The translations under genes and the position numbers were made by a program. A stretch of 64,000 nucleotides of DNA, taken from contig QDFX01000007.1 in assembly GCA_003347645.1 (NCBI GenBank), positions 1-64,000 of the forward strand, in the 5' to 3' direction. This DNA is from Rhizobiaceae bacterium CPCC 101076. GTDB lineage: Bacteria > Pseudomonadota > Alphaproteobacteria > Rhizobiales > Methylopilaceae. The notes beneath the pieces are model-generated. The model was not told where the DNA came from. It saw nothing but the letters and a program-made list of their open reading frames with translations, and did not search any database. Shown here piece after piece: positions 23,501 through 50,263 of this stretch (within the stretch, counting starts at the first letter, position 1; each line of letters opens with the position of its first letter).

Positions 23501-24198
23501 AAAAACCCGCGGATGCCGTGCGGGTCCTGACATGGAATATCCACGGCGGCGTCGGGCCCGACCGGCGCTTCGATCTGCACCGCATCGTTGATCTCATCCG
23601 AGATTGGGAGGTGGACATCATCGCTCTGCAGGAAGTCGATTCCCGCAGGAGCCCGCGAGGCTCCTCCGCCTTTTCCTTCCTGCTCCAATCCCTTGGCGGA
23701 CACGGCGTAGAGGCAAAATCGATCCTTGCCCGCGACGGCGAATACGGGCAGATGCTCATCAGCCGCTGGGCACCGGATCATACGGAAATTCACGACATCT
23801 CCGTCCCGCGCCGTGAACCGAGACGCGCCATCCACACCGGGATTTCGACCCCATACGGCCTGCTGCAGGTCACCGCGACGCATCTCGGCCTCAGTTTTCG
23901 GGAGAGGCGCTGGCAATCGACGAAGCTCTGCTCCATCGCTGGCAGGAGCACCGCGACGTCCGTCATCATGGGAGACTTCAACGACTGGCTTCGCGGCGGA
24001 GCGGTAAAAAGATCGCTCACCGGATTCATGCCCGAAGCAACAAGCTTCAGAACCTGGCCGGCACGCTGCCCGATGATGAAGCTCGATCAAATATTCTGCC
24101 GCCCCGCGGGAACTTTGATCCAGAGCCGCATAGACCATCGGGGCGCCACGATGTCGGATCACCTTCCAGTCATCGCGGATCTGAGAGTTTTCCAGTAA
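23497..24198 (+). CDS. Endonuclease/exonuclease/phosphatase (EEP) family protein
   Basis: A 233-residue Mg2+-dependent hydrolase of the DNase I-like EEP fold. Active-site motifs: TWNIHGGVG (Asn), IALQEVD (Glu), MGDFNDW (Asp/Asn) and SDHLPVIADL (Asp-His). It has no signal peptide. Its ATG overlaps the stop of the PLD-VTT gene, so the two are coupled and probably act on related phosphodiester or phospholipid substrates. Such PLD plus EEP pairs recur in alphaproteobacteria. The substrate is not set by sequence. Confidence 0.88.
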   Translation: MKKPADAVRVLTWNIHGGVGPDRRFDLHRIVDLIRDWEVDIIALQEVDSRRSPRGSSAFSFLLQSLGGHGVEAKSILARDGEYGQMLISRWAPDHTEIHDISVPRREPRRAIHTGISTPYGLLQVTATHLGLSFRERRWQSTKLCSIAGRSTATSVIMGDFNDWLRGGAVKRSLTGFMPEATSFRTWPARCPMMKLDQIFCRPAGTLIQSRIDHRGATMSDHLPVIADLRVFQ

Positions 24199-27309: not shown

Positions 27310-27350
27310 CGAGTTTCGCCGCGCGGACACCGCTCGGCACAGAGGATTGA

Positions 27351-27611
27351 ATGTACGGATATCGGGTGGTCCTGGTTCTCGTCTCAGCTCTCGTCCTTTG
27401 GGCGGGGGTGAGGATCTACGGCCAACTATCCGAGACTGTGCACGGATCGGCACTTGGCTTTACCCTCGAAGCCTTGAAGCTCCCGGTGCACGACGGCGAA
27501 CCTGCTCCGGCATCCCCCCCGCCCCCCCAGCCGGAGCAGGTTCCGCCGCGTCCCTTCCCTTTCTCACTGCTATCCAGAGGCGAACTGATCCCCGCCTCCG
27601 GCTTCGTCTAG
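27351..27611 (+). CDS. Small single-pass membrane protein, proline-rich
   Basis: An 86-residue protein: one membrane helix (about 5-22), then a short extracytoplasmic tail with a run of prolines (PASPPPPQPEQVPPRP). AGAGGA lies 4 nt before ATG 27351. Its stop is 17 nt before the start of the large histidine kinase, so the two are likely co-expressed. No known family is recognised; a small partner of the kinase is one possibility. Confidence 0.55.
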   Translation: MYGYRVVLVLVSALVLWAGVRIYGQLSETVHGSALGFTLEALKLPVHDGEPAPASPPPPQPEQVPPRPFPFSLLSRGELIPASGFV

Positions 27612-27628
27612 ACGCCGGAGGGGGCAAG

Positions 27629-30064
27629 GTGAGCAGTATCCTCAATGATTTGACCGCGCACGAAAGCGGCGCCCTCAGGGGCGCCGGACTGCGTTCGGCC
27701 GAGGCCCTATCGGCGGTTGCGCCATGGCTCCGCCCGAGCGATGGTGGCGTCCGTGGTTGGGCCGATATGCGTATTGGGCTGAAAGTCTTCTTGGTCGGAG
27801 CCATTCCGATCGTCATCGCGGCAGGCATCGCGCTCGCCGCATGGATGCTTTTGGCCGAAGCGGACCGCGCGCGCCACGCAGCGGTGCTCGCCAGTACCTT
27901 TTACCGAAACCTCGGCATGGCGATCGCGGCGCGCGACGACTACGTCGATTCCGTCGGCGAGGACCGCAGTCGGCATCACTACGTCTTCGCCTCCCACGCC
28001 AATCAGGCATGGACCGACATGAACGCGCTGGCGGCGTATGCGTCGGATGCCGAACAGGCGAAGGCGATCACCGAGGGCCGCGACGACCTTGCCCGCTTCA
28101 TGCGGCGCATGGCGGAATTCGTACAGACCACCGAGCGCAACGACCTCGCGGCGAAGAACATGGCGGCCCGCGCCGCTTCGCTGATATCGCTCAGCGACCA
28201 GGCCCGCGCACGGCAGCACACGTCGAACAGCGAAATCATGGCCTCAATGCGCGAGGACGACCGCAAGCTCCGCTTCGCACGCGAGATTGTCGACCGTACC
28301 GAGCAAATCAGGTCCGCGCTGAACGCTCTCGAAGTCGAGGCCGCCCGCGCCGGCGGATTTACCGACACACAGCAGACCCAGCTCAATATTTCTAGCTTGC
28401 GGAACGAGGCGCGCGATCTCGCACCGCTTCTCCGCGATGCCGGCCAATCGGCCTTGGCGGTCGAGTTGCCGTGGCTGGTCGATTCCTACGAGGAGCGACT
28501 CCGCCAGAACGACCAGCGCGCTTGGGCTCCCCGGCTATCGGAATGGCTCGAGCGTCTCCTGAAAGTGCAACGCACGCAGCGGCAGGCTCTTCATGACGAG
28601 GTCGCGTCGCTGATGAACTACTCGGTCGAGTCCAGCGAGACCGATCAGGCGACGCAGAATATCGCGATCGAAGCGCTGAAGCTTGGCCAGACGACCGAAA
28701 AGGCGCTCGCGGGCCGCGACGGGCCCGCGATGATGACGATCCTCGAACAGAGCAACGCTCTGTCTCGCCGGGTCGCGGCGCTACCGATTTCGCCGCTGAT
28801 CCAGTCCGAAATGGTCGACGCGATCGACCAGTGGAGGCAGGGATTGTCCGCGATCTCCGGCGCGCTCAAAACGCAAAGTCAGATGATCGCCGACATGGAT
28901 GCGAGCGCGCATTCAATGCTGGAGCGCGCGGGTTCGCTGAACGACATGTTCACGACCTATGCGGACCGGATCGGCGACGTCGTCCGCAAGATCCTCGTCA
29001 TCGGCGCGGCAGCTGCCCTGTTCCTGGGTGCCATCCTCGCCTTCTACGTCGCGCGTTCGATCACAAATCCGCTGGGCCGTCTGAAAGGCCGCATGCTGGA
29101 GCTGGCGCAGGACCCATTCGCCGGACCGGTCGCCGACGCCGACCGCCGCGACGAGCTCGGCGAGATCGCCCGCGCCGCGAACTTCTTCGTCACCGAGATC
29201 GGCCGGCGTGAGCACGCCCTTCGTCGCGCCAAGGATCGCGCCGATACCGCGCTGACCGAACTCCGCCGCACCCAGGACGATCTCATCCAGTCCGAGAAGC
29301 TCGCCTCCCTCGGCCAGCTCGTCGCCGGCGTGGCTCATGAGATCAACACGCCAGTCGGCATCGCGCTGACGACCGCGACCTCGATGAGCGACGAGGTCAA
29401 ACGCTTCGGCGAAGCAGCTTCGGAAGGCAGGCTGCGGCGCACCGAATTCGAGCGCTTCGTCGCCCGTGTGAACGAGGGTTCGCAGCTCCTCTATACGAAC
29501 CTGAACCGCGCCGCCGAACTGGTGCAGAGTTTCAAGCAGGTGGCCGTCGACCAGGCGAGCGGCGAGCGGCGCACCTTCGACCTCGGCCACTGGCTGCACG
29601 AACTACTGACCAGCCTTGGCCCCGTGCTCCGCAAGACGAAGCACGAAGTGACCATCGAGTGTCGCGAGGGGGTCGTCATGGACACCTATCCCGGCGCGCT
29701 CGCGCAGGTGCTGACTAACCTCCTGATGAACGCTGTGATCCACGCCTATGCCGAGGGCGAGGCCGGACGGATGGTCTTGCGCGTCGAGGAACCCGCCGAG
29801 GGTTGGCTGCGCCTGACATTCACCGACGACGGCCGCGGCATCCCGCCAGACCACCACGACAAGATATTCGAGCCGTTCTTCACGACCGGCCGTGCGCAGG
29901 GTTCAACCGGCCTCGGCCTGCACATCGTCTACAACCTCGTCACCAACAGCCTTCTCGGCCGGATCGACCTCGAAAGCGAACCCGGCAAAGGCACCCGTTT
30001 CATCCTCGATCTGCCGCAGAGCGTGGCCTCGGTCCTTCCTCAGAAGCACTTCGCAACCGCTTGA
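27629..30064 (+). CDS. Membrane sensor histidine kinase with long helical sensor domain
   Basis: An 811-residue kinase. After a short cytoplasmic lead come membrane helix 1 (about 47-70), a predicted all-helical periplasmic sensor of about 380 residues, helix 2 (about 450-470, IGAAAALFLGAILAFYVA), HAMP, a coiled coil, HisKA with GVAHEINTPVGIAL, and HATPase with DDGRGIPPD and STGLGLHIVYNLV. The EINTP box is of the DctB/NtrY-like class. GTG 27629 has GGAGG upstream; ATG 27767 is a shorter choice just before the first helix. There is no paired regulator next to it. A DppA-like binding protein follows after 8 nt and could feed it a ligand. Confidence 0.88.
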   Translation: MSSILNDLTAHESGALRGAGLRSAEALSAVAPWLRPSDGGVRGWADMRIGLKVFLVGAIPIVIAAGIALAAWMLLAEADRARHAAVLASTFYRNLGMAIAARDDYVDSVGEDRSRHHYVFASHANQAWTDMNALAAYASDAEQAKAITEGRDDLARFMRRMAEFVQTTERNDLAAKNMAARAASLISLSDQARARQHTSNSEIMASMREDDRKLRFAREIVDRTEQIRSALNALEVEAARAGGFTDTQQTQLNISSLRNEARDLAPLLRDAGQSALAVELPWLVDSYEERLRQNDQRAWAPRLSEWLERLLKVQRTQRQALHDEVASLMNYSVESSETDQATQNIAIEALKLGQTTEKALAGRDGPAMMTILEQSNALSRRVAALPISPLIQSEMVDAIDQWRQGLSAISGALKTQSQMIADMDASAHSMLERAGSLNDMFTTYADRIGDVVRKILVIGAAAALFLGAILAFYVARSITNPLGRLKGRMLELAQDPFAGPVADADRRDELGEIARAANFFVTEIGRREHALRRAKDRADTALTELRRTQDDLIQSEKLASLGQLVAGVAHEINTPVGIALTTATSMSDEVKRFGEAASEGRLRRTEFERFVARVNEGSQLLYTNLNRAAELVQSFKQVAVDQASGERRTFDLGHWLHELLTSLGPVLRKTKHEVTIECREGVVMDTYPGALAQVLTNLLMNAVIHAYAEGEAGRMVLRVEEPAEGWLRLTFTDDGRGIPPDHHDKIFEPFFTTGRAQGSTGLGLHIVYNLVTNSLLGRIDLESEPGKGTRFILDLPQSVASVLPQKHFATA

Positions 30065-30072
30065 GAGTCAAA

Positions 30073-31665
30073 ATGATCCGCAAGAGCCAACTGACACTGG
30101 CCCTGATGCTGTCGCTCGCTGCAATTCCGGCCTCAGCGAAGACGCTCGTCTTCTGCTCCGAAGGCAATCCGGAAGGCATGAACCCCCAGATCGTCACGAC
30201 GACGACCGGCATGAACGCGGTCCGCGCGATCTTCAACACTCTGGTGGAATTCGAGCCCGGCACCACGGTGCTGCGCGCTTCCCTCGCCGAAAACTGGACG
30301 ATCTCCGAGGACGGAACGGAGTACACGTTCCAACTGCGGAAAGGCGTGAAGTTCCATTCGAACGCCTTGTTCACGCCCTCACGCACGATGAACGCGGACG
30401 ACGTCATCTTCTCGCTGGAACGCCAGTGGAAGACCGACCATCCGTTCCACAACGTGTCCGGCGGAAAGTACGACTACTTCAAGGACACGGGGATGCCCGA
30501 TCTCCTGAAGACGATCGAGAAGGTCGACGATTACACGGTCAAGATCACGCTGACCCATCCCGAAGCGCCGTTCCTCGCCAACCTGGCGATGAATTTCAAT
30601 TCCGTCCTGTCGGCGGAATATGCTGACCAGCTGCTGAAGCAAGGCATGCTCGAAAAGCTCGACGAGGCACCGATCGGCACCGGCCCCTTCTCGTTCGTCA
30701 GCTATCAGAAGGACGTCGCGGTCCGCTATCGCGCGTTCCCGGACTACTGGGCGGGAAAGCAGCCCGTAGACATGCTGATCTTCTCGATCACACCGAACCC
30801 GGCGGTTCGCCTGACCAAACTGAAGGCCGGCGAATGCCATGTCATCGCCTTCCCCAATCCGGCTGATATCGAGAAGATCAAGGTCGATCCGGATCTTCGC
30901 CTCCTTAGCCAGGAGGGCATGAACATCGGCTACATGTCGATGAACGTGACCAAGAAGCCGTTCGACGATGTCCGTATCCGCCGCGCCATCAATATGGCGA
31001 TCGACAAGGAGTCGATCCTGACGGCCGTCTATCGTGGCGCTGGCATCGTCGCGAAGAACCCGATCCCGCCGACGCTCTGGTCCTACAACGACGACGTGAA
31101 GGACTATCCCTACGACATCGAGGGCGCCAAGAAACTGATGGCGGAGGCAGGCTATCCGCAGGGTTTCGAGAGCGAGCTCTGGTACATGCCGGTGAGCCGT
31201 GCCTACAACCCGGACGGCCGCCGCATCGCCGAGATGATCCAGACCGATCTCGCCCGCATCGGCATTCGCCTGAATTTGATCACCTACGAATGGAACGCCT
31301 ATCGCGCCAAGCTCCAGAACGGCGACGCGCCGATGGCCTTGTTCGGCTGGACCGGCGACAACGGCGATCCGGACAACTTCCTCAACGTCATGCTGGGCTG
31401 CACGGCCGCTCGCCCCGGCGGCAACAATGTCGCGAAATGGTGTAACCGCGAATTCGACGACCTCGTAACCAGGGCCAAAGGCATCTCCGACCGCAACGAG
31501 CGCACGCGCCTTTACCGCGAGGCACAGGAAGTCGCGAAGCGCGAAGCGCCTTGGGTGCCGCTCGCTCACTCCGTCGTCTTCACCGGCATCCGAAAGGATG
31601 TCGTCGGCTTTAAGCAGGATCCGCTTGGCCGTCACCTGTTCGAGAATGTCGACGTGAACAACTGA
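30073..31665 (+). CDS. Dipeptide-type ABC transporter substrate-binding protein (family 5)
   Basis: A 530-residue periplasmic protein of the DppA/OppA class. The signal peptide ends at ASA (about residue 21). The mature N-terminus TLVFCSEGNPEGMNPQ and later GTGPFSFVSY, RRAINMAIDKESI and MLGWTGDNGDPDNFL-like blocks are typical of DppA, which binds dipeptides or haem. No dppBCDF transporter genes follow. Instead it is 8 nt after a histidine kinase gene, which suggests a sensory partnership or use of a distant transporter. It converges on the GDYXXLXY gene with 9 nt between stops. Confidence 0.88.
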   Translation: MIRKSQLTLALMLSLAAIPASAKTLVFCSEGNPEGMNPQIVTTTTGMNAVRAIFNTLVEFEPGTTVLRASLAENWTISEDGTEYTFQLRKGVKFHSNALFTPSRTMNADDVIFSLERQWKTDHPFHNVSGGKYDYFKDTGMPDLLKTIEKVDDYTVKITLTHPEAPFLANLAMNFNSVLSAEYADQLLKQGMLEKLDEAPIGTGPFSFVSYQKDVAVRYRAFPDYWAGKQPVDMLIFSITPNPAVRLTKLKAGECHVIAFPNPADIEKIKVDPDLRLLSQEGMNIGYMSMNVTKKPFDDVRIRRAINMAIDKESILTAVYRGAGIVAKNPIPPTLWSYNDDVKDYPYDIEGAKKLMAEAGYPQGFESELWYMPVSRAYNPDGRRIAEMIQTDLARIGIRLNLITYEWNAYRAKLQNGDAPMALFGWTGDNGDPDNFLNVMLGCTAARPGGNNVAKWCNREFDDLVTRAKGISDRNERTRLYREAQEVAKREAPWVPLAHSVVFTGIRKDVVGFKQDPLGRHLFENVDVNN

Positions 31666-31674
31666 GAGCCTGCG

Positions 31675-32241
31675 CTAGAGCAGGCTCTCCTCGTAGCGAA
31701 CCGTGCCGTCGACGAGCAGCCGCTTGAGAGCGGCGCGTCCGTCCTTGCCGACGGCAACATCGACTTCCATGCGCTTGTCATTGCGCATCTTTTCGAGTTC
31801 GAGCCCCTCGCCCTCGGGCACGAAGAACTTCTCCAGATTGTATTCGACGCTGTAGTTGGCGCAGTGCTCGCCGGTGCAATTGTCGGTCCAGCGGACGTTC
31901 TCGATCGTGCCGCGCAGCGCCATTCGGCCTTCGGGCATCGAATGGTGAAGCGCGACTGCCTTCCACTGGTCGCCCTCCCGCGCGAGTTCGACGAAGATTG
32001 GGTCCTGATAGCTGAAGGCGTCATTGCCGCCGAGCTCGGCCGCCGCCAGCTGCGATTGCGGATAAGACAGCACGACATAATCGCCGCGCAGGAAATCGCG
32101 CGGGTCGACTGGTAGGACGGACAGCCGGATTTCCTGCCCGTTCGTGATCAGCATCGCGCGGTTGGCGATCATGTATCCGAGCAAGGCGGCCTGAACGACA
32201 AGGGCGAGCGCGAAGCCCCAAAGCGGAAGACGCCGGGTCAT
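31675..32241 (-). CDS. GDYXXLXY-domain membrane protein
   Basis: A 188-residue protein with one N-terminal helix (about 7-27) and an extracytoplasmic domain holding the namesake motif GDYVVLSY. ATG 32241 overlaps the DUF2157 stop (ATGA); a longer reading frame upstream is only the shadow of that gene. DUF2157 and GDYXXLXY proteins are usually encoded together, and their function is unknown. It is the last of five close reverse-strand genes that start with a nucleotide cyclase. Confidence 0.85.
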   Translation of the reverse strand: MTRRLPLWGFALALVVQAALLGYMIANRAMLITNGQEIRLSVLPVDPRDFLRGDYVVLSYPQSQLAAAELGGNDAFSYQDPIFVELAREGDQWKAVALHHSMPEGRMALRGTIENVRWTDNCTGEHCANYSVEYNLEKFFVPEGEGLELEKMRNDKRMEVDVAVGKDGRAALKRLLVDGTVRYEESLL

Positions 32242-33548
32242 GCCGCAACTCCTGCTGGGCGAAGTGTCAGCCGGCGGTCGAGCCGGACCATGACGACAGC
32301 CATAGCGATGAACAGCACGCCACCAATCAGGAATGCGATCGCCGTATCCATCAGGCTGCCGAGCGTGACGCTGTAGAGATACAGAACCTCGGCGCAGAAG
32401 ATGACCATGCCGAACTTGCTGTTGAGCGGGTGACCGGCATGGCCGAGCGACATCCACCACAGCGCGCCGGCCAGAACCAGGCTGCCGGTCGCGAGACGGG
32501 GTGTGAGATCGCCTGTGTTGGGCTCATTCCAGAAGGCGAGTGCGAATGAAGCGCCGCCAACGAGGACCAGGGCGACCAGGTCGGCGAGACGAATGGTGCG
32601 CTTTTGATGGGCCCATGCGCCGAGACCGACGGCCGTGACCAGTACGGTCAGCAGCACCGGCAACCAGACGGACTGCGTGCCCTCCTCGTGCGTGAGGAAC
32701 AACGTTACCTGCGTCATCGCGAGGGCCAACAGCACGCCCGTGAATGACGGCATTTCGAGATCGCGACCGAGCGCAGCGAGACGCGGATGAGCACGCGCCG
32801 TGCCAAGCACGAGACCACCGGCCCAGAAGGCGAGGCCCGAAAGGGTGAGAAGCGCGAAGCCCGCGCTCGCGGGCCAATTCGCCCGGACATCGAGCTGGTA
32901 GACCGACATCACCATCCAGACCGCCAGCGCCAACATGGCGCTACGACGTGCAAGCCGGCTGTCCGCCCATGTCGCCGTCGCGGCACCGAACAGAATGGCA
33001 ACGAGACCGCCCCAATGGATCAGCACCCCGCTATCGATCACTTCCGAAGTCCAGTAGACGGCGCCGACCAGGAAAATGACGATCGCCGAGATCGATCGCG
33101 TCGCGAGGATCGCGACCGCCATGCCGACCAGCCAGAGCAGGATCGCATCGGAGAATTCGCCGGCCAGATGATAGGTCTGGCCGACAAGCGCGATCGACGC
33201 CGCGAAGACGAAACCGGCAATCAGGACCGCAACGTCGGCGATCCAGATCATGTCGCGACGGCACAGTTCCGCGGCGGCGCCATATGCCAGTGCGAGTGCC
33301 AGCAGAAGAAGGCCGAAGCGTAAGACACGGGGCATGTAGTCCCAGTTCGCGCCGACGAATGCGAAAACGCCGAAACCGAGCAGGATTGCGCCCAGAAACG
33401 CGATCATGGTCGCCAGCGTGACGCTCATTCCCTTGCCGGAATTAACGGAAGAGAGAATGGCAGCGGCTCCGTCATCGCTGACCCAACCCTGTTCCCGCCA
33501 ACGCGGAAGATCGTCCGCCAGCCTTTTGCGGTATTGCCCGTCCAGCAT
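32238..33548 (-). CDS. DUF2157 polytopic membrane protein
   Basis: A 436-residue protein with a short soluble N-terminus (RKRLADDLPRWREQGWVSDDGA, typical of DUF2157) followed by about a dozen membrane helices through to the C-terminus. Function unknown. It begins 10 nt after the antiporter stop and overlaps the GDYXXLXY gene, so all three should be translated together. The link with an ion antiporter hints at an envelope or ion-stress role, by inference only. Confidence 0.87.
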   Translation of the reverse strand: MLDGQYRKRLADDLPRWREQGWVSDDGAAAILSSVNSGKGMSVTLATMIAFLGAILLGFGVFAFVGANWDYMPRVLRFGLLLLALALAYGAAAELCRRDMIWIADVAVLIAGFVFAASIALVGQTYHLAGEFSDAILLWLVGMAVAILATRSISAIVIFLVGAVYWTSEVIDSGVLIHWGGLVAILFGAATATWADSRLARRSAMLALAVWMVMSVYQLDVRANWPASAGFALLTLSGLAFWAGGLVLGTARAHPRLAALGRDLEMPSFTGVLLALAMTQVTLFLTHEEGTQSVWLPVLLTVLVTAVGLGAWAHQKRTIRLADLVALVLVGGASFALAFWNEPNTGDLTPRLATGSLVLAGALWWMSLGHAGHPLNSKFGMVIFCAEVLYLYSVTLGSLMDTAIAFLIGGVLFIAMAVVMVRLDRRLTLRPAGVAA

Positions 33549-33558
33549 CTTCGTCCCC

Positions 33559-36039
33559 TCAGCCGGCAGCTTGCGGGGCCGCGACCTTGTTTTCCTTGAG
33601 GCGTTTCTTGGCGACGCTCTCGATGTGCGCGCCTACATCCGGGTGAGACGCGATGAATGAATTAAAGGTTCGAGCATCGAGACGAAGAAGCGAACAATAA
33701 GCAATCGAGAAGACGTCGGCGGTGCGCGGTTCGTTGGTTAGTAGAGCGAGCTCGCCGAAGACATCGCCGGTGCCCAGACGGATCTGCCGGAAGCCGGCCC
33801 GCACCTCGACCGCGCCGGACGAGATGAAATAGGCCGCGTCACCGCGATCGCCCTTCCGGATCAGCATCTCGCCCGGCAGAGCGAAGACCGGCGTCATCAG
33901 CGAGCGCATCTCCTCGACCTGCTCATCATTGAACGACGAGAACAGCGGGAATCGTTTCACGAGTTCGCAGGTGTCGAGACCGAGATCGAGCGGCGGCCGG
34001 CGGTCGATCTTCTCACGCTGGGCCGCGATGCGAAGCTTCAGGTCGCGATGCAGTTCCGGGCCGATGATGCTCTGCTCGAACAGGCTTTCATATTCGAGTT
34101 CCTCCCGTCGCAGCGCTGTCCTCAGGACGAAACTCCGTTTGAGCGCCTGCGAATATTCGGGGAACTGGAGATTCAGGCCGTCGAGAGCACGCTGGATCGC
34201 CTCCAGGCGTTCGGTCAGAAGCTCCTGCGCGCGCCGCGCGACTTCCGTACCGAGCACAGGTTCGATCGTGGCGTGGATGAAGGGGGTCAACTGCATCAGC
34301 ACGATGCGGCTCGCGAGGATGATCTCGAACCGATCCGACAACAGACGCGAGAAATAGGTATCGACGCCGAGCCTGCGGTGGATGCCATGCGCAAGCTTCA
34401 GCCGGGTCGTCAGGCCCAGGCTCTTGCGAGCGGCCTCGGCATAACCGTGCTCGCCGCCGGTACGGGCGCGGTCGATCAGCCGGGCGCTGTTGGCGAGCAT
34501 GTCCGAGACGATCGAAAACGAGATCGTCCGCTCGCGGAACTGTTCGAGGATCAGCTCCCGCTCCTGCCGTGCCAGGGTCACAAGGCCGAGTGAGATGCGA
34601 TGCTCGCGGTCGAAGCCGGCGAAATCCTCTACCCGCTCCCGGGCTTCGGCCATGGCTCCGCTGATCTGCATTTCCGGCAGTTCGTAGAGGGACGCCGATT
34701 TGGCGAGCTGGTCCTGCACGTTGAACTGCGCAACGCTCAGAACCTGCAGGCGCAATGCCTCGTCGAGCGGAGACAGGCGGTCCAGCCCGACCAGGCGCAT
34801 CAGGATGTGCAGCGTCGTGCCCTGGATGAGCACTGTGAACAGGACGAAGCCGGTCGCGAGAACCGCGATGAAACGCTTCACTTCCAGGGACACGTCCGGA
34901 TTTTCCGTGATCGAAAGCGCCAGCGCCAAGGTTAGCGCGCCGCGCAGGCCACCCCACAAAATGACAACGCCGTACCGCCCGCCAATTGCGGTCGATAAAC
35001 CGAACCTCGACATCAGCGGAAGGGCAACGAACAGGATGACCGCGCGCGCGACAAGCGCCGCCAGCACGAGCACCATCAGCAGACCGAGATCGGTCCAGGT
35101 CGCGCCGGCCAAGAGCTTGGGGATCAGCACCGAAGCCAGGACGAAGACGAGCGAGGTCGCCCAATAGTCCAGCTGCTCGGCGATGGCGTGGAACTGTCCC
35201 CAGCCGACCGGCGAGGCGTAAGCGGGTCCGAACAGATTGAATGTGATGCCGACGCTGACGACCGCGACCACGCCCGACACATGCAGCATATGCTCGGCGA
35301 AGATGAATGCGAGGTAGGGCGCGGCGAGGAGGAGCGACACCTGCGCCATCGGCCGGTCACTGACGAGCGCCGTCAATACGCAGACGACGCGCCCGACGAG
35401 ATAGCCGAACACCGCCCCGCCACCACCGAGAAGGAAGAAGGTGGTCACCGTGCCGCCGATATTGACCGGCTGCGGTTCGAGCACGTAGCCGAGGAACAGG
35501 ACGAACAGCGTGATCGCCGCTGCGTCGTTGAACAGGGCTTCGCCTTCCAGGATGCGGCCGAGGCGCGACGGCGCGCCGATATCACGGAAGATGCCGATGA
35601 CGGCAACCGGGTCCGTCGTGGCGACCACCGCGCCGAGCAACAGGCACGCCATCAGCGAGAAACCCGAAATCCAGTGAACGACGCCGCCGATGAAGAAGGT
35701 AGCCACGATCACCGCCACCACGGACAGCACCAGGACTGGACCCGCATCCTCGGCGATCTGGCGCACGTCGATGTTCACCGCAGACTGGAAAACGAGGATC
35801 GGCAGGAACACGAAGATGAAGACGGAAGACGCGACCGGCGGGTTGACGATGAGCTGGACGACGCCGTTCGGATCGAACGCGTAATAGTGCTGAAGAACCA
35901 GCGAGACCACGCCGATGCCGATGCCCAGCAGAGCGAAGGCGACGCTCGTCGGTACACGCAGCCGAGCCGCGATCGGCTCGACCATGCTGACCATGGTCAA
36001 GAGGCCGGCGACAATCAGAACGACCGCAGGAACGAGCAT
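33559..36039 (-). CDS. CPA1-type Na+/H+ antiporter with C-terminal cyclic-nucleotide-binding domain
   Basis: An 826-residue protein. The first about 400 residues are a 12-13 helix CPA1/NhaP exchanger with ATTDPVAVIGIFRDIGAPSRLGRILEGEALFNDA-type helices holding the Asp ion site. A cytoplasmic helical stretch (about 400-680) leads to a cNMP-binding domain (about 700-805). The phosphate-binding cassette is intact: FGELALL (761-767) and PRTA (771-774), with the Arg that contacts the cyclic phosphate. ATG 36039 follows family start patterns. The gene is 22 nt after a metallo-hydrolase gene and downstream of a nucleotide cyclase gene. Gating by cAMP or cGMP is therefore likely. Confidence 0.88.
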   Translation of the reverse strand: MLVPAVVLIVAGLLTMVSMVEPIAARLRVPTSVAFALLGIGIGVVSLVLQHYYAFDPNGVVQLIVNPPVASSVFIFVFLPILVFQSAVNIDVRQIAEDAGPVLVLSVVAVIVATFFIGGVVHWISGFSLMACLLLGAVVATTDPVAVIGIFRDIGAPSRLGRILEGEALFNDAAAITLFVLFLGYVLEPQPVNIGGTVTTFFLLGGGGAVFGYLVGRVVCVLTALVSDRPMAQVSLLLAAPYLAFIFAEHMLHVSGVVAVVSVGITFNLFGPAYASPVGWGQFHAIAEQLDYWATSLVFVLASVLIPKLLAGATWTDLGLLMVLVLAALVARAVILFVALPLMSRFGLSTAIGGRYGVVILWGGLRGALTLALALSITENPDVSLEVKRFIAVLATGFVLFTVLIQGTTLHILMRLVGLDRLSPLDEALRLQVLSVAQFNVQDQLAKSASLYELPEMQISGAMAEARERVEDFAGFDREHRISLGLVTLARQERELILEQFRERTISFSIVSDMLANSARLIDRARTGGEHGYAEAARKSLGLTTRLKLAHGIHRRLGVDTYFSRLLSDRFEIILASRIVLMQLTPFIHATIEPVLGTEVARRAQELLTERLEAIQRALDGLNLQFPEYSQALKRSFVLRTALRREELEYESLFEQSIIGPELHRDLKLRIAAQREKIDRRPPLDLGLDTCELVKRFPLFSSFNDEQVEEMRSLMTPVFALPGEMLIRKGDRGDAAYFISSGAVEVRAGFRQIRLGTGDVFGELALLTNEPRTADVFSIAYCSLLRLDARTFNSFIASHPDVGAHIESVAKKRLKENKVAAPQAAG

Positions 36040-36061
36040 GATGTTTCCGACCGAATGGGAG

Positions 36062-36925
36062 TCAGGGGCCGGGCGCGCTCCCTGCCAGTGCCGAAAGCTT
36101 GGCACGGGCATCGAGCGTAACCGTCATCGCCTCGCGAGCGAAGAATGCATTGGGAAACCGATCCTGCAAAGTCCGTTCCATCTCCAAGAGACGCTCATCG
36201 TCATATTCGGGCGCGTGATGGAAGCAGGCGAGCCGCTCGACTCCGGCCGAACTGGCGAGGTCCGCACCGACCGCCCAGGTCGAATGCCCCCACCCTTTGA
36301 AGCGCGGATAGTCCGGCACGTCCCAGGTTGCGTCGTAGACGAGGAGGCCCGCGCCCTGGCAGAACGCCACGAGCATCGGATCTGACCGGTCGGAAGCGTG
36401 CTCGACATCGGTCAGGAAGACGGCGGACTGGCCTCCGGAATCGAAGCGGTAACCGGTCGCGCCGCCCGGATGATTGAGCGGACATGTGCTGACCGCCACG
36501 CCGCCGAATTGCAGGACTTCGCCGGCATTGAATCCGATGAACCGTACCTTGGCCGGGAGATCGTCGAACGTCAGCGGAAACAGCGGCGGCGAAAACAGGT
36601 TTCGCAATGCGGCTTCGGCGGTCGCGCCGTCGAGATTGCCGCAATAGAGGTTGACGGTCGCGCCCTCGACGAACAGCGGCGCGAACGACATTAGCCCAAC
36701 AACGTGATCGTGGTGCAGATGCGTGAACAGCACGTCAAAATGTTCGCCGCGCGCAGGGTTCGGATCGAGATTGTCGCTCAACGGCAGAATGCCCGTGCCG
36801 GCGTCAATGATGAAACGCCGCCCGGCCACGAGAACCTCGATGCAGGCCGTGTTCCCGCCGAACATCTGCGTCTTCTGTCCCGGAACCGCGATCGACCCGC
36901 GAACGCCCCAGAAGCGGACGCTCAT
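36062..36925 (-). CDS. MBL-fold metallo-hydrolase
   Basis: A 287-residue metallo-beta-lactamase-fold enzyme beginning MSVRFWGVRGSI, of the Lactamase_B_2/RNase Z-like class that includes some phosphodiesterases. Metal ligands are intact: THLHHDHVVG, the LNHPGG His, LTDVEH Asp and CFHHAPE His. ATG 36925 is preferred; an upstream extension to 37060 looks non-coding. It sits between the cyclase (101-nt gap) and the cNMP-binding antiporter (22-nt gap). A role in breaking down the cyclase product is an inference from context. Confidence 0.82.
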   Translation of the reverse strand: MSVRFWGVRGSIAVPGQKTQMFGGNTACIEVLVAGRRFIIDAGTGILPLSDNLDPNPARGEHFDVLFTHLHHDHVVGLMSFAPLFVEGATVNLYCGNLDGATAEAALRNLFSPPLFPLTFDDLPAKVRFIGFNAGEVLQFGGVAVSTCPLNHPGGATGYRFDSGGQSAVFLTDVEHASDRSDPMLVAFCQGAGLLVYDATWDVPDYPRFKGWGHSTWAVGADLASSAGVERLACFHHAPEYDDERLLEMERTLQDRFPNAFFAREAMTVTLDARAKLSALAGSAPGP

Positions 36926-37026
36926 GCCGCGCGAAGTGTCAGTGCTGCCGTTTGTCAAACGCGTAGCCCACCCAATCGAAACTGATTCCTTGTACGCGGA
37001 TCGTGGCGGCGAAATAGAGGCCGCCG

Positions 37027-39243
37027 CTACTTGTGCGCAAATTCCGTCACGCCATCCCATTCCGCGGGCGGCTGCTCGACGCCGAATTTCCGGCTGACCT
37101 CGACATAGTAGTCGTAGAGACGCGACAGGCCGTCGAATCGCGATTTCGAGAGCATGGCCGCACGCTCGGCCGCTTCGGCGAAACGACGCGAGCGGAAGGC
37201 ATCGATCATCGCCGCATGGTCCGTGGCGTGCCGACGAAACTCCTCGGCATTGGCCACGGTCGCGTCTCCGACGAGCGTGAAGATGCGCACGGCCTCCGTC
37301 TTACCCTTCACGCGGACGGCATCGACCTCGAGCCATGCGAAGTCCGGCGCGGCTTCCCGTGTCGGCCGCGAGGCGAGGATCTCGACGCCGTAGGTCTTGC
37401 TCGCGCCCTCGAGACGAGAGGACAGATTCACATCGTCACCGAACGCCGAATAGTCGAAACGGCGCACTGAACCAAAATTGCCAACGGAGCAACTGCCTGT
37501 CGCAAGTCCGATACCGAAACGAACCTGCTTGTGAGCGCGTCCCGATACGTCGGCTTCCGCTTTCCAGCGCGCATTGAGCGCCGCGAGCGCGATGATCATG
37601 TCGAGCGATGCGCGCGCCGCGTTCGACGCGTGGTCCGGGTCGTCCAGCGGCGCGTTCCAGAAGGCCATGATCGCGTCGCCGATATATTTGTCGAGCGTCG
37701 CCTTGTGATCGAGACAGACCTCGCTGAGCGCCGTCAGATAGGTGTTCATGAATGTCGTCAGTGCGACGGCATCCATACCTTCCGAGATCGCGGTGAAACC
37801 GCGGATGTCGCAGAACATGATGGTTATGGTCCGCGTCTCGCCTCCGAGGACCAGGCGCTCCGGATCCTTGGTCAGCTGCTCGACGACGGCCGGCGCCACG
37901 AAGCGTCCGAATGCCTCTCGCACCCAGCGCTTCTGCTTCTGTTCGGCGCGGTAGAGCGACAGTACGCCCGACAGGTAAACCGCGGCGACCGTGATCGTCG
38001 GAAACAACGGATCGAGCAGGACGCCGTTGTGCGAGAACGCGTACCAGCTGCCGCCGATCACGGTCGCGATCGCGGCGAGGCCGAGCACAGCCGTTCCGGC
38101 CGCCTCGATACGCGGCAGCAAGATCGCGATCGCAAGGCCCGCCAATGCCGCGATCAGAAGCTCGAGCCCCACCGCCCAATCGGCGCGAATCAGGGAATAA
38201 CCCTCGACGATATGCTCGATCAGTTGCGCGTGGACCTCGACACCGGGCACCGAAGCATCGACGGGCGTCGCACGCTGATCGAGCAGCCCCGCCGCGCTCG
38301 TGCCGATGAGTATGATGCGCCCCTGGATCTCGTTTGAATCGACGGAGCCGTCGAACAGCTTCCAAGCCGGTACGAAACGCGCGCCCTCGGTGTGGGAGAA
38401 TCTGACGCGAATTTCGCCGCGCGGGTCGGTCGCGATTTCCTGCGCTCCGACCTTGATCGCGTTGATGCCGGTCCGGGCCCCGAACGTCGTCTGCCCGCTC
38501 GCATTCGACGCCCGGATCAGGAACGTCGATGCCGATTGCGCCACACGCAGCGATTCAAGCGCGAGACCGGGAACGATTTGGTTGCGCACCCGCAGCACAA
38601 GCGGCACGCGCCGAACCGTCTGATCGCGATCGGGCAACCAGTTCAGCGCGCCGATGCCGGCGGCTTTCTCGACCAGACCCGGCAAAGGCAAAACAGCGCT
38701 TGAGAAGTGCGGAATAAAGGCCAGCGGATCGTCGCCCGCGCTCGCAATGCCGAACTTGACCGGATAGGTGACCTCCGCCGTTCCTCCGGTCAGAATGCTT
38801 CCGAGCACGACCGGCGCGGTGCCGATCTCGTCCGCGAAGGTCTGGTCGTTTCCCGGAGTGGAGGCCAGTTCGCGCTGGATCAGGCTTTTGCCAGGCGTCT
38901 CCGGCAACAGCGGCAAGACGTTCTCCGGACTGGTCCGGTCCGCCTCCGAGAACACCATATCGAAACCGATTGCGGCGACGCCCATCTGCCCGAGGCGCTG
39001 CACGAGTTCGCCCAGTCGCGGTCGCGGCCATGGCCATTGGCCAATCCTTCGGAGCGATTCATCATCGATATCGACGATCCGGACCGGCGTCTGCGGATTC
39101 CACGGCCGAGGCGACACCCGCTGGTAGGAATCGAAGATCAGGTTGCGGACGTCATCCAGCCGCGACGCCTGCGAAAGCCCCAGTGCAAGGATGGCGAAAA
39201 GCGGGACCAGAACCGCTGCCAGATAGGACCAGCGTCCGAGCAT
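37027..39243 (-). CDS. CHASE2-domain class III adenylate/guanylate cyclase
   Basis: A 738-residue sensor enzyme. After one membrane helix (about 4-22) comes an extracytoplasmic CHASE2 domain (to about 335), three membrane helices (about 345-435) and a class III cyclase domain (about 468-660). Catalytic residues are in place: metal-binding D479 (FCDIRGFT) and D523 (YIGDA), ATP-selecting K519, S599 (DYSAFGDD), and transition-state N606 and R610 (VNLSSR). K plus S fits ATP better than GTP, so cAMP is the expected product. It heads a five-gene reverse-strand run with a cNMP-binding antiporter and is divergent from a barrel/FecR pair. Confidence 0.92.
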   Translation of the reverse strand: MLGRWSYLAAVLVPLFAILALGLSQASRLDDVRNLIFDSYQRVSPRPWNPQTPVRIVDIDDESLRRIGQWPWPRPRLGELVQRLGQMGVAAIGFDMVFSEADRTSPENVLPLLPETPGKSLIQRELASTPGNDQTFADEIGTAPVVLGSILTGGTAEVTYPVKFGIASAGDDPLAFIPHFSSAVLPLPGLVEKAAGIGALNWLPDRDQTVRRVPLVLRVRNQIVPGLALESLRVAQSASTFLIRASNASGQTTFGARTGINAIKVGAQEIATDPRGEIRVRFSHTEGARFVPAWKLFDGSVDSNEIQGRIILIGTSAAGLLDQRATPVDASVPGVEVHAQLIEHIVEGYSLIRADWAVGLELLIAALAGLAIAILLPRIEAAGTAVLGLAAIATVIGGSWYAFSHNGVLLDPLFPTITVAAVYLSGVLSLYRAEQKQKRWVREAFGRFVAPAVVEQLTKDPERLVLGGETRTITIMFCDIRGFTAISEGMDAVALTTFMNTYLTALSEVCLDHKATLDKYIGDAIMAFWNAPLDDPDHASNAARASLDMIIALAALNARWKAEADVSGRAHKQVRFGIGLATGSCSVGNFGSVRRFDYSAFGDDVNLSSRLEGASKTYGVEILASRPTREAAPDFAWLEVDAVRVKGKTEAVRIFTLVGDATVANAEEFRRHATDHAAMIDAFRSRRFAEAAERAAMLSKSRFDGLSRLYDYYVEVSRKFGVEQPPAEWDGVTEFAHK

Positions 39244-39440
39244 TCAGCGGCCCTTCGAGTGCGACCGGAAACCAAAGCCGGCAGCCGGTTTAGCCTCCGA
39301 TGTGTCACACGTAAACCACCGTGCCGGGCTCACAATCCAGAGTCACCGTCCCGATACATGGAATCTTGTTGCGTGTGCAATTGAGCCGCACTAGGAGGGT
39401 TTCGGGGCGCTGGCAAGTTTGCCGAAACTTGGGAGCGATT
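39244..39440. promoter_or_regulatory. Divergent promoter region with two CRP/FNR-like palindromes
   Basis: This 197-bp region separates the cyclase gene from the barrel/FecR genes. It holds TGTGTCACAC (39301-39310) and TTGC-GTGT-GCAA (39369-39380), both short palindromes built of TGTG/CACA or TTG/CAA halves as in CRP/FNR-family sites, though the spacing is not the E. coli CRP one. If functional they could bring cAMP feedback to both transcripts. This is a reading by eye only. Confidence 0.35.
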
Positions 39441-40790
39441 ATGGCTGAGAAACCGGGCATGCGGGTTGCGCTGCTCGCGGTCACCCTTGCGTGCGGCCTC
39501 GTGGATGGTGCTGCCGCACAAGGGGCCGCTCAGGCCCAAAGCCGCGAGGCCATTTTTGCGCAGATGCTGCGCGATCCTGGCAATGTCACCCTCGCTCTGC
39601 GCTACGCGAAACTGAGCAACGACGAAGGCGATCTCGAAGCCGCAATCGGCGCGCTCGAGCGCATCCTGTTCTATAATCCGAGCGAACCGAACGCTCGTCT
39701 CTATCTCGGCCTGCTCTACGCCAAGCTCGGCTCGAACGACATGGCGCGTGGCTATTTCGAGTCGGTACTTCAGCATCCCGCAACGCCCGAGCCGATCCGT
39801 GCTCGCGCCGAGGCGCTGCTCGCCAAGGCGAACGAGCGGCTGAGCCCGCATCAGTGGAACAACTACATCCGCACCGGCGTCCGCTACCAAAGCAATGGAA
39901 ACGACGAGCCAGACGGCGAATATCAGGTGTTCGACCCGATCAACGGCCTGACGACGGTTGAGGGCAATCCAACAGACGACTGGAACGCTTATGTCCAGAC
40001 CGGCACGTTCTACAGCTATGATTTCGGCAATCAGCGCGGCGATCGCTTCGAAGCTAGCCTGACGACCTATAATACCCGCAACGCCCGCTTCGACGACTTC
40101 AACTACAACATGGCCGAGGTCACGGCCGGCATCCGGTTCGGCCTGCCGATGGAGAACGGCATGGCATCGGTGAAGCCTTACGTCATCGGCACCGCCGCTT
40201 TGCTCGACGACCAGGAGTATTTCCATGGCGGCGGCGGCGGCCTCGTCTTTGACATCCCGGTCGGCAAGATCGTCGTCTCGCCGTTCGCCGAAGCCGTCTG
40301 GCGCGAATACGAGAACAACGACGAGATCAACATCATCGGCGGATCGCAGTTCGAGGACCGTAATGGCGTGACCACGACGGCCGGCTTCCGTCTCGCGACA
40401 AGCACCTACGCCGCCTACCGCTTCAATGCCCGCCTCGCCTACGAAACACGTGATGCCGACCAGGACTATGAGGGTTTCGAGCGCTTCCTGGCCGAGATCC
40501 AGTTCCCATTCGACGTGAACATCAAAGGTCACCAGCTTCTGATCACGCCGCTCTTCGGCGTCCGTTATACGAACTACGACGCACCCGATCCGACCGTTCA
40601 GGACGTCGATGGCATTGACGACGTGACGCGCGAGGATCTCGAATTCCGGGTCGGCCTTGCCGCCGATTACGCGATCAACGACTGGGCCGGCGTCGGAGCG
40701 CAAGTGTTGTACCGCACGACGGATTCGAACCTCAATGCATACGAAACCGACAACTGGACGATCTCGTTCGGTCCCAATTTCCGGTTCTGA
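39441..40790 (+). CDS. TPR-linked outer-membrane beta-barrel protein
   Basis: A 449-residue exported protein. A signal peptide (MRVALLAVTLACGLVDGAAA) is followed by TPR-like repeats (about 45-130, with LALRYAKLSNDEGDLEAAI and ARLYLGLLYAKLGSND), then a region of alternating polar/aromatic strands of about 300 residues ending in the C-terminal Phe typical of outer-membrane barrels (SFGPNFRF). The build recalls the Slam/DUF560 family of surface-lipoprotein export factors. ATG 39441 has GGGAG 7 nt upstream. The FecR-domain gene follows 10 nt later, so it may be the cargo or partner. Confidence 0.75.
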   Translation: MAEKPGMRVALLAVTLACGLVDGAAAQGAAQAQSREAIFAQMLRDPGNVTLALRYAKLSNDEGDLEAAIGALERILFYNPSEPNARLYLGLLYAKLGSNDMARGYFESVLQHPATPEPIRARAEALLAKANERLSPHQWNNYIRTGVRYQSNGNDEPDGEYQVFDPINGLTTVEGNPTDDWNAYVQTGTFYSYDFGNQRGDRFEASLTTYNTRNARFDDFNYNMAEVTAGIRFGLPMENGMASVKPYVIGTAALLDDQEYFHGGGGGLVFDIPVGKIVVSPFAEAVWREYENNDEINIIGGSQFEDRNGVTTTAGFRLATSTYAAYRFNARLAYETRDADQDYEGFERFLAEIQFPFDVNIKGHQLLITPLFGVRYTNYDAPDPTVQDVDGIDDVTREDLEFRVGLAADYAINDWAGVGAQVLYRTTDSNLNAYETDNWTISFGPNFRF

Positions 40791-40800: not shown

Positions 40801-41628
40801 ATGCCTATCTTCAACAGCCGCACGGCGGCCCGCATCTCCGCCCTCCTTGCCGGCACCGCGCTGTTTACCCTGAACGTGCAGGCACAAAGCGTCGGCACAG
40901 CCGCGGCCGTCAATCCGACGACCGAGGGCGTGCGTCCCGGCCAGGCGATACGCGTGCTTCGCCTGGGCAGCGACATCATCAGCAACGAGCGGATCAACAC
41001 CTCGCCGCAGGGCTCGACCCAGATCCTGTTCGTCGACAAGACAACGCTCAACATCGGTCCGGGCAGTTCGGTCGTGATCGACCAGTATGTCTTCAACCCG
41101 AAGACCGATACCGGCCAGGCGGCGATCACGCTTGGCAAGGGCATCATGCGCTTCGTCGGCGGCGAGATCAGCCACAGCGGTGGCGCGACGCTGAAGACGC
41201 CAGTCGCGACCGTCGGCATCCGCGGCGGTATGGGAACGATCGAGCACACGGCCGACGGGACGATCTATCTGCACCATTACGGCTCGGCGACGATCAGCAA
41301 TTCCTGCGGTTCGGTGACGATCAACCGTCCAGGTTTCTCGACCAGTGTCGGCGGCCCGAACCAGTGCCCGACCGATCCGGAAAAATCGACGAAGCCGGCC
41401 ATCGACCGCGCTCTGGCGCTGCTGACCAGCGGTCCCGGGCAGTCGGGAGGCGGCACGTTCACCGGCCAAGGGCCGCAGACGATCGACACGCCGACAGTCG
41501 ATCTGCCGCCGGACCTGCAGAAGGATCTCGACGATCTGGTCCGCGAGGCACAGCAGGATGTCGTGACGGGTGATCAGCACTACGACGACCCGCCGCCGTC
41601 GTGCACCTTCTCCTGCACCGGCAACTGA
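40801..41628 (+). CDS. Exported FecR-domain protein
   Basis: A 275-residue protein with a Sec signal peptide (cleaved near VQAQ-S) and a FecR domain (about 45-170), recognised from RPGQAIRVLRLGSDI, GSTQILFVDKTTLNIGPGSSVVIDQYVF and TPVATVGIRGG. The tail (about 175-275) is Pro/Thr/Asp-rich with a few Cys. It lacks the cytoplasmic anti-sigma part and membrane helix of classic FecR, and no FecI-type sigma gene is nearby, so it is not an iron-citrate anti-sigma factor. GAGGAG precedes ATG 40801. Its 3' end overlaps the convergent glycosyltransferase gene by 49 bp. Confidence 0.82.
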   Translation: MPIFNSRTAARISALLAGTALFTLNVQAQSVGTAAAVNPTTEGVRPGQAIRVLRLGSDIISNERINTSPQGSTQILFVDKTTLNIGPGSSVVIDQYVFNPKTDTGQAAITLGKGIMRFVGGEISHSGGATLKTPVATVGIRGGMGTIEHTADGTIYLHHYGSATISNSCGSVTINRPGFSTSVGGPNQCPTDPEKSTKPAIDRALALLTSGPGQSGGGTFTGQGPQTIDTPTVDLPPDLQKDLDDLVREAQQDVVTGDQHYDDPPPSCTFSCTGN

Positions 41629-46413: not shown

Positions 46414-46537
46414 ATTTGCGTCGCAAGGGCTTGTCGCGTACGGGGACGATCAACGGGCTTGATCGAACCGTACATAAAGCCGGCAACGGCAAGAGTTTCA
46501 TCTTAATCCGGTGCCCGGGCAGGGCGGAGTATCCCAA

Positions 46538-49192: not shown

Positions 49193-49209
49193 CGCTGGTT
49201 GGTGGGACA

Positions 49210-50229
49210 ATGGCGCGTGTATTGGTGACTGGCGGCTGCGGGTTTGTCGGCCGTCATCTTGTGAAGGCTTTGCAAGATCGCGGCGACGAGATCCGCGTCG
49301 TCGACCTGGCTCCTCCCTCTGTCGGCGGGCCGCATGCGGAGTACATCAGGGGCTCGATCACCGACGCCGCGCTGATGGATTCAGCGCTCAAGGGCGTCGA
49401 TCGCGTCTACCATCTCGCCGGTATTCCCCATCTCTGGGCTAAGAAGCGGAGCGGCTTCGACATCGCCAACCGCCAGGGCACCGAGGCCGTCATGGCGGCC
49501 TGCATGCGCGCGAATGTTCCGCGCGTCGTCCATTGCTCGACTGAATCGATCCTTCTGCCGAAGACCAAGCGCGAAGCCGTCGACGAGTCGCTGACGCTCC
49601 AGCTCGGAGACATGCCGGGCCCCTACACCCGCTCGAAGTTCCAGGCGGAAGTGGCCGCGATGAAGGCCGCGCGTGAAGGACTGAACGTCACGATCGTCAA
49701 TCCGACCGTGCCGGTGGGCGCGGGCGACGACAACATGACTCCGCCCGCGCAGATGCTGGCGCTCTTCCTCAAGGGCGGCACGCCGTTTTTCCTCGATTGC
49801 GTGCTGAACCTCGTCGACGTTCGCGATGCCGCCGACGGCATGATCCTCGCAGGTGACAAGGGTGCGGTCGGAGAGCGCTACATTCTCGGCGGCGAGAATG
49901 TCCGCCTGCGCGATCTGCTGCGACTGCTTGAGGAAGTCTCCGGTCGCCGGATGCCGACACGCACGATCCTGCCCCCGATCGCGCTCGCGGCAGGCGTGGT
50001 CTCCGAGTTCATCGCCAACAACATCACCAGGACCGCGCCTGCGGCGACGCTCGAAGGCATCTTGCTCGCTTTGCGTTCCGGCGCGTTCGACAACTCCAAG
50101 GCACGCCGGGAACTGGGTTATTCGCCCCGTCCGGTCGACACTGCACTGCGCGCGGAGCTGGAATGGCTTGCGAGCAGAAATAATGCCGAACAACCGACAA
50201 GCTTTGGACACGAAGCTTCGGCTAAGTGA
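49210..50229 (+). CDS. hpnA: Hopanoid-associated sugar epimerase HpnA
   Basis: A 339-residue short-chain NAD(P)-dependent epimerase/dehydratase. The nucleotide motif GGCGFVG (8-14) and the catalytic YTRSK (YxxxK) are visible, along with NPTVPVGAGDDNMTP. HpnA is encoded with hopanoid genes throughout Rhizobiales; its exact substrate is not settled. It follows hpnN by 17 nt and precedes a DUF2141 gene by 34 nt, so these form one transcript leading towards hpnH. Confidence 0.92.
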   Translation: MARVLVTGGCGFVGRHLVKALQDRGDEIRVVDLAPPSVGGPHAEYIRGSITDAALMDSALKGVDRVYHLAGIPHLWAKKRSGFDIANRQGTEAVMAACMRANVPRVVHCSTESILLPKTKREAVDESLTLQLGDMPGPYTRSKFQAEVAAMKAAREGLNVTIVNPTVPVGAGDDNMTPPAQMLALFLKGGTPFFLDCVLNLVDVRDAADGMILAGDKGAVGERYILGGENVRLRDLLRLLEEVSGRRMPTRTILPPIALAAGVVSEFIANNITRTAPAATLEGILLALRSGAFDNSKARRELGYSPRPVDTALRAELEWLASRNNAEQPTSFGHEASAK

Positions 50230-50263
50230 CGCCACGAATTCTCAAAATGAGGACGTGCGCATC

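Follow-up and report, generated by a model that had tools for sequence, protein, structure and literature searches.

A CHASE2 nucleotide cyclase encoded beside a CNBD-bearing CPA1 antiporter in Rhizobiaceae bacterium CPCC 101076: a candidate local cAMP circuit for ion exchange

A candidate cAMP-antiporter circuit

The first 64,000 nucleotides of contig QDFX01000007.1 of Rhizobiaceae bacterium CPCC 101076 (hereafter the window; host genome of 3.73 Mb in 38 contigs) carry a gene row encoding a CHASE2-type nucleotide cyclase, a metallo-beta-lactamase (MBL)-fold hydrolase and a CPA1-type antiporter that ends in a cyclic nucleotide-binding domain (CNBD). The locus is best explained as a cAMP circuit, encoded locally, by which ion exchange is set; a probability of roughly 0.55 is assigned to this reading. 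This explanation draws on the gene anatomy, the intact active and binding sites and the recurrence of the neighbourhood, all of which were observed directly, and on the predicted fold of the antiporter. The row consists of five genes, all on the minus strand, whose products were all matched by Pfam above curated cut-offs. A preliminary description of the window had reported these five reverse-strand genes; its coordinates, strands and successive gaps (101, 22, 10 and -4 nt) were re-derived exactly from the sequence, and its domain assignments were confirmed by Pfam. The genes are as follows.

37027..39243, minus strand: CHASE2 membrane sensor with class III nucleotide cyclase, 738 amino acids (aa) (PF05226, CHASE2; PF00211, Guanylate_cyc; catalytic motifs; PDB sequence matches)
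36062..36925, minus strand: MBL-fold hydrolase, 287 aa, candidate cyclic-nucleotide phosphodiesterase (PF12706; NCBIfam; metal-site columns; family neighbourhood)
33559..36039, minus strand: CPA1 Na+/H+-type antiporter with a helical cytosolic domain and a C-terminal CNBD, 826 aa (PF00999; PF00027; PDB matches; AlphaFold2 (AF2) model; fold match)
32238..33548, minus strand: DUF2157 polytopic membrane protein, 436 aa (PF09925; hydropathy; closeness to GDYXXLXY)
31675..32241, minus strand: GDYXXLXY protein, 188 aa, with one predicted transmembrane segment (PF14345; hydropathy)

In the proposed circuit, an envelope signal, probably relayed by FecR and TPR/barrel proteins encoded divergently from the cyclase, would reach the CHASE2 domain and raise cyclase activity. 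The resulting cAMP would bind the CNBD of the antiporter and alter Na+ (or K+)/H+ exchange, while the MBL protein would remove the cyclic nucleotide and reset the circuit. We infer cAMP as the ligand, as well as the gating and its direction, the substrate of the MBL protein, the signal and the ion.

The cyclase and its FecR and TPR partners

The cyclase possesses both a CHASE2 domain (Pfam, 9.5e-55) and a Guanylate_cyc domain (4.3e-22) together with the metal and transition-state residues, as is typical of class III CHASE2 cyclases. The motifs FCDIRGF, KYIGD and VNLSSR were located by script at residues 477, 519 and 605, respectively, in keeping with the earlier claim of a complete set of class III catalytic residues. 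These motifs presumably play their usual class III catalytic roles in this cyclase, and Lys519 is taken by us to denote a preference for ATP. PDB sequence matches of the protein include CyaB and other adenylate cyclases.

The five genes listed in the preliminary description stand, while the divergent FecR and TPR/barrel genes, which belong to the cyclase module, had been omitted from it. These and the stretch preceding them are:

39244..39440, no strand: divergent intergenic stretch, candidate control region (position only)
39441..40790 (open reading frame (ORF) from 39321), plus strand: TPR protein, its C-terminal part beta-barrel-like, divergent from the cyclase (weak TPR and DUF2860 Pfam hits; conservation; relatives)
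40801..41628, plus strand: FecR-domain protein, 275 aa (PF04773; FecR genes near other CHASE2 cyclases)

For the TPR/barrel gene, the best TPR model of Pfam scored below its cut-off and the DUF2860 hit was weak as well. We infer the ATG at 39441 as its start in preference to the ORF start at 39321; if it is used, the gene begins about 200 nt from the start of the cyclase. Judged by position alone, the stretch between them (39244-39440) is probably a control region. The FecR protein likely carries a signal peptide, as read by eye from its sequence. The cyclase neighbourhoods inspected were those of 19 of the 69 hits in the order other than that of the window and of G150, a genome of the family; a FecR ORF occurs within 2 kb of 14 of the 20 CHASE2 cyclases whose loci were examined. 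Relatives of the TPR/barrel gene adjoin CHASE2 cyclases elsewhere in the order, and the gene is kept with the cyclase at loci L132 and L133. CHASE2 class III cyclases with FecR/TPR neighbours have the same domain order as the cyclase of the window, whose locus differs from theirs in additionally having the antiporter and MBL genes.

At a further locus (L280, 6013-7242), a response-regulator receiver domain is fused to an MBL domain of the window family, 1.4 kb from a CHASE2 cyclase with three FecR genes nearby.

The antiporter

Both domains of the antiporter were identified by Pfam (Na_H_Exchanger, 2.5e-48; cNMP_binding, 9.9e-17). A script located the NDA motif at residue 171 and the phosphate cassette of the CNBD, FGELALLTNEPRTA, at residue 761, the latter with both of its ligand residues (Glu763 and Arg772) intact; the preliminary description had also given the cassette as intact. 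NDA171-173 is kept in 53/53 aligned antiporters (alignment A1: the antiporter of the window together with 52 others out of 90 collected at that stage). In a PDB sequence search with the antiporter, SOS1 gave the lowest E-value with SLC9C1 nearly tied, and the CNBD matched the corresponding domains of SthK (9e-21), PKG, PKA and HCN.

The AF2 model of the antiporter, made from a 34-row alignment, has a mean pLDDT (predicted local distance difference test) of 81 and a pTM (predicted template modelling score) of 0.66. In this model a helical stretch (residues 424-679) leads into the CNBD, with no voltage-sensing domain, and the last CNBD helix lies at residue 820 of a chain that ends at 826. No voltage sensor was found by hydropathy, which gave no transmembrane segment after residue 401, nor by Pfam, which recognized only the exchanger and the CNBD. 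Comparison of the model with SLC9C1 and SOS1 gave E-values down to 4e-33 using Foldseek and Z-scores of 38.7-47.5 using VIA (723-789 residues aligned, root-mean-square deviation (rmsd) 9.7-11.4); for three SOS1 entries, 742-789 residues were aligned by VIA with Z-scores of 46.7-47.2 and rmsd of 9.7-10.6. The high rmsd of these whole-length matches probably reflects a different placement of the domains. As modelled, the antiporter resembles SLC9C1 and SOS1 over its whole chain.

The alignment of the cassette columns covered 168 distinct antiporter copies, including a split gene that does not contain the cassette part. All ten distinct antiporters that adjoin a CHASE2 cyclase keep both the Glu and the Arg of the cassette; among the 158 others, which have no adjacent CHASE2 cyclase, 93 keep the cassette when an insertion is allowed (90 by strict columns) and in 62 the cassette Glu is replaced by Gln or His. 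As the copies are related, these counts are no significance test. Many antiporters of loci L205-L277, many of them of Rhodobacterales, carry Gln or His at this position. The sequences of the Gln/His set suggest changed or lost cyclic-nucleotide binding.

The MBL hydrolase

The MBL protein was matched by Lactamase_B_2 of Pfam (1.8e-18) and possesses the motifs THLHHDH at residue 68, GHST at 213 and HH at 236 (located by script). Its metal-site residues, previously described as intact, are invariant in a 22-row family alignment. Profile searches gave RNase Z as the best match, followed by human ELAC1, BA1088 and YhfI (6kns), with weaker matches to PhnP and Apyc1. Apyc1 is an enzyme that cuts cyclic nucleotides. 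A structure predicted from the single sequence reached a mean pLDDT of 41.

Atypical class-II phosphodiesterases (Rv1339, YhfI and CpdA) are described, in the part of the source available, as having a [T/S]HXHXDH signature and as close kin of RNase Z (PMC9293780). This signature and PF12706 are shared by the MBL protein of the window, which is only weakly similar in sequence to these enzymes, RNase Z scoring closer.

The genomic context of MBL relatives was surveyed at 20 of the 51 hits in the order other than that of the window, most of them high-scoring. At 15 of these loci a CNBD gene lay within about 5.6 kb, and 12 had a class III cyclase no farther than about 5 kb away; one or the other was nearby at 17 and neither at 3. 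In the examples tried, Pfam bore out the CNBD, ABC and cyclase assignments. A CNBD-linked ABC transporter lies within 8 kb of the MBL gene in 33 of the 47 genomes having both (61 of the 70 ABC rows were used, second pieces and three fragments being excluded). This neighbourhood supports the earlier proposal that the MBL protein is a likely cyclic-nucleotide partner, and a phosphodiesterase role is likely for it. The genome of the window also encodes a homologue of this ABC transporter (G000:C11:47468-50137, 46% identical), located away from the locus.

Recurrence of the cyclase-antiporter pairing

The antiporter is present in 9/18 genomes of the family (Methylopilaceae), and a CHASE2 cyclase, with both domains confirmed by Pfam, adjoins it in all nine. 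In the genus of the window the MBL gene lies between the two, whereas in a second genus (six genomes) the cyclase adjoins the antiporter directly, tail to tail, after an ORF of 1,214-1,257 aa with a FecR match (FecR and TPR confirmed by Pfam in 5/6 genomes). A different cyclase lineage adjoins the antiporter in G034 and G142 of the order sample. In the tree, the antiporters of one genus are sister to those of the other (support 99). A single clade for their cyclases was rejected by the approximately unbiased test (p-AU 7.5e-7), performed on a quick tree and for a grouping chosen after an earlier tree; the tree had 29 rows, with three long rows, 11 close relatives and duplicates of an earlier set excluded. 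Because of this rejection, and because the cyclases of the two genera sit on opposite sides of the antiporter, the pairing looks to have been acquired twice. Judged from these sequences, two different CHASE2 cyclases appear to have come to adjoin orthologous antiporters with different geometry.

A survey of 385 genomes across the class gave antiporter relatives in 65. At L197, in a fragmented genome of another family, cyclase, FecR and antiporter genes lie on one strand. The association of a CHASE2 cyclase with a CNBD antiporter proposed in the preliminary description is therefore seen again in another genus, where the cyclase belongs to a different lineage, and at L197. At L196 (3810-10796), an MBL gene and a gene for a CHASE2-SpoIIE protein face a CNBD antiporter gene; there the output of CHASE2 is not a cyclase but a PP2C-type phosphatase.

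The nearest outside relative of the window cyclase (L057 in G052; support of 100 and 99 in two trees) is encoded at locus L278. Immediately upstream of it is an Ion_trans channel with a CNBD. With TTG as the start of the cyclase the two ORFs share 4 nt; the following Met codon lies 12 nt inward. FecR and TPR/barrel-like genes are located upstream, and facing these are genes for an MBL protein and for an ABC transporter that ends in a CNBD. A second genome of that family encodes a channel with 94% identity to this one; its contig apparently ends before the cyclase side. The transporter beside a CHASE2 cyclase can thus be swapped, an antiporter at one locus and a CNBD channel at another.

Three of the 22 antiporter loci that belong to the order but not to the family have some other class III cyclase 4-6.6 kb away. 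Cyclases near antiporters that were not counted as CHASE2 cyclases are those of L157 (TPR type, 964 nt away), L211 (TPR type, 2.4 kb), L205 (dCache type, 7.1 kb), L038 and L047 (no CHASE2; 5.5 and 4.1 kb), and L044 and L237 (class III, outside the Pfam scan; 6.6 and 4.8 kb). At L275 of Ruegeria, a receiver-domain cyclase 161 nt from the antiporter was rejected, as it has no CHASE2 domain and the cassette Glu of the antiporter is Gln.

Evaluation of the circuit and of alternative explanations

Several results weigh against the proposed circuit, among them the rarity of the pairing elsewhere. None of the 22 antiporter loci from other families of the order showed a CHASE2 cyclase over a distance of about 8 kb (shorter at contig ends). 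At the class level 59/60 loci were without one over the same distance (60 of the 66 match rows other than that of the window, six from fragments or cut genes being excluded; several contigs are short, those of L155 and L197 being under 6 kb). Among a further 80 antiporter loci, taken from named genomes, one was present only at L200, which shares its contig and an identical antiporter core with L134. Of the 14 genomes of the order with close homologues of both the antiporter (E 1e-60) and the cyclase (E 1e-90), 13 encode them at separate places, and the rough Poisson chance of at least three independent adjacencies is 0.0002-0.06, depending on cyclase copy number and lineage count. The association is probably above chance but sporadic, and its double origin leans on the quick tree and late-chosen grouping mentioned above.

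The five-gene set itself is limited to the genus. With the FecR/TPR genes and the flanking kinase and solute-binding genes, it is complete in 3/4 genomes of the genus, while at the thresholds applied neither antiporter nor cyclase was found in G151. In the sample of 150 genomes from the order, that of the window is alone in having a close antiporter homologue no more than 3 kb from close homologues of the cyclase, MBL, DUF2157 or GDYXXLXY. The set is thus not conserved beyond close relatives, an outcome that the preliminary description had named as counting against its proposal. As the flanking histidine kinase and solute-binding protein genes are equally syntenic in the genus, gene order there proves little and conservation of the operon within it was set aside as evidence. 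A scan for sigma-70-type promoters gave no site in 39244-39440 and none upstream of the gene row, and terminator-like hits in a scan of the locus were at background level. Furthermore, 65 of the 158 antiporters without an adjacent CHASE2 cyclase lack the full cassette. Regarding the MBL protein, its best match RNase Z shares the [T/S]HXHXDH signature, which is therefore not diagnostic of an atypical class-II phosphodiesterase, and the NCBIfam model for cyclic nucleotide-degrading phosphodiesterases (NF041851) scored 41.4 bits against a cut-off of 400.

In one alternative the genes are loose neighbours, the cyclase feeding a cell-wide cAMP pool and CRP-type regulators, the antiporter reading that global pool and their adjacency being incidental. 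Most antiporter relatives have no nearby cyclase, and the 93 that keep the cassette without an adjacent CHASE2 cyclase imply that cAMP, if read there, is made elsewhere. This account is nevertheless considered rather unlikely, given the adjacency in 9/9 genomes of the family with two cyclase lineages, its occurrence at L197 and the replacement of the antiporter by a CNBD channel at L278. Less probable still is a CNBD that is structural or regulatory in a ligand-free manner, with the cyclase acting on other targets. Plant SOS1, of the same architecture, is reported to lack ligand-binding residues (PMC10372031, as available in part), and the 62 relatives with Gln or His at the cassette Glu would fit such a role; however, Glu763 and Arg772 are retained in the window and in all ten distinct copies adjoining a CHASE2 cyclase, and the domain matches those of SthK, PKG, PKA and HCN.

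One alternative concerns a single gene and is compatible with the rest of the circuit: the MBL protein may be a tRNA/RNA phosphodiesterase or other hydrolase outside cyclic-nucleotide turnover. It has the best claim among the alternatives, RNase Z being the strongest match in both PDB and NCBIfam, and is still held to be doubtful, as the neighbours of the family are CNBD, cyclase and ABC genes and the profile also reaches YhfI (6kns), PhnP and Apyc1. A Pycsar-like antiphage system, in which a cyclase is coupled to a cyclic-nucleotide-activated effector, is highly improbable. PADLOC models of PycC match the cyclase, and those of PycTIR and related effectors match the CNBD, but across the five proteins these matches fall only on the shared cyclase and CNBD parts. 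No TIR was detected in the Pfam scan, the cyclase carries a CHASE2 sensor and has FecR partners, and the antiporters of the two genera form sister groups.

Comparison with SLC9C1, SOS1 and SthK

Among the closest parallels to the proposed cAMP circuit is SLC9C1, the sperm Na+/H+ exchanger, which is described, in the part of the source available, as voltage-gated, with cAMP shifting its voltage range (PMC6052114). This likeness, drawn in the preliminary description, is borne out by the PDB sequence and whole-length fold matches: the two proteins share the CPA1 exchanger domain, cytosolic helices and a C-terminal CNBD, at about 22% identity. SLC9C1 is also linked with a cyclase in sperm, as the antiporter of the window is encoded near one. 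They differ in that SLC9C1 has a voltage-sensing domain, and in that the cyclase of the window is a CHASE2 membrane sensor encoded beside the antiporter.

Plant SOS1/NHX7 has the same order of exchanger, alpha-helical cytosolic domain and CNBD, and the accessible portion of the same report describes its CNBD-like domain as lacking ligand-binding residues, including the ligand Arg, and as followed by a beta-domain and an autoinhibitory tail (PMC10372031). In contrast, the antiporter of the window keeps Glu763 and Arg772 and stops after the CNBD. SthK-type prokaryotic channels have a similar CNBD, although SthK is a channel and the protein of the window an antiporter.

Wider occurrence and significance

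It is tentatively proposed, at somewhat below even chances, that Alphaproteobacteria hold widespread cyclic-nucleotide-gated transport cassettes consisting of a cyclase, an MBL phosphodiesterase and an exchangeable CNBD transporter (CPA1 antiporter, channel or ABC). If so, the form with an antiporter would, as far as the literature searched shows, be the first secondary transporter gated by cyclic nucleotides in bacteria, and a bacterial counterpart of SLC9C1 and SOS1 with a working CNBD. In bacteria, cAMP is known mainly as a transcriptional signal; if a sensor cyclase were coupled to a CNBD antiporter, cAMP would have a fast, non-transcriptional output at the envelope. The locus would also give a simple bacterial system in which to model SLC9C1, an exchanger whose gating is studied in sperm. 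Searches, with subscription papers mostly outside their reach, brought up two papers on CHASE2 with adenylate cyclase and FecR; they found no literature joining MBL, CNBD and cyclase, and none on CNBD and antiporter in Alphaproteobacteria. A 2020 review, in its available part, gives the combination of exchanger and CNBD as absent from bacteria (PMC7573149). This statement appears wrong, as both domains were confirmed by Pfam in five antiporters (window, L032, L033, L133 and L197).

The DUF2157-GDYXXLXY pair and neighbouring genes

The last two genes of the row (DUF2157, Pfam 2.7e-31; GDYXXLXY, 6.5e-33) form an independent two-gene module that has joined the gene row in the genus of the window. 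They lie within 3 kb of each other in 42/45 genomes of the order sample having both (47 of 55 DUF2157 rows were used; seven below the cut-off and one second piece were excluded), and only in the genome of the window are they near the antiporter. As the pair travels independently, it was rejected as a part of the cAMP circuit, and its inclusion in the preliminary description as completing the set is not upheld. DUF2157 is named as the N-terminal membrane part of LiaF in the available part of a review of phage shock protein (PSP) envelope-stress responses (PMC11237479); this would fit an envelope role of the pair.

Adjacent to the row (27347-31665) are genes for a HAMP histidine kinase and then a family 5 extracellular solute-binding protein, both of which are kept beside the locus in L132 and L133. 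At 21263-24198, phospholipase D (PLD) active-site motifs are fused to a VTT (DedA-like) domain, and this gene adjoins one of the endonuclease/exonuclease/phosphatase family. MMPL transporter, NAD-dependent epimerase and radical SAM/DUF3463 genes stand in a row at 46511-52516, which we take to be a hopanoid (HpnN/HpnA/HpnH-like) cluster.

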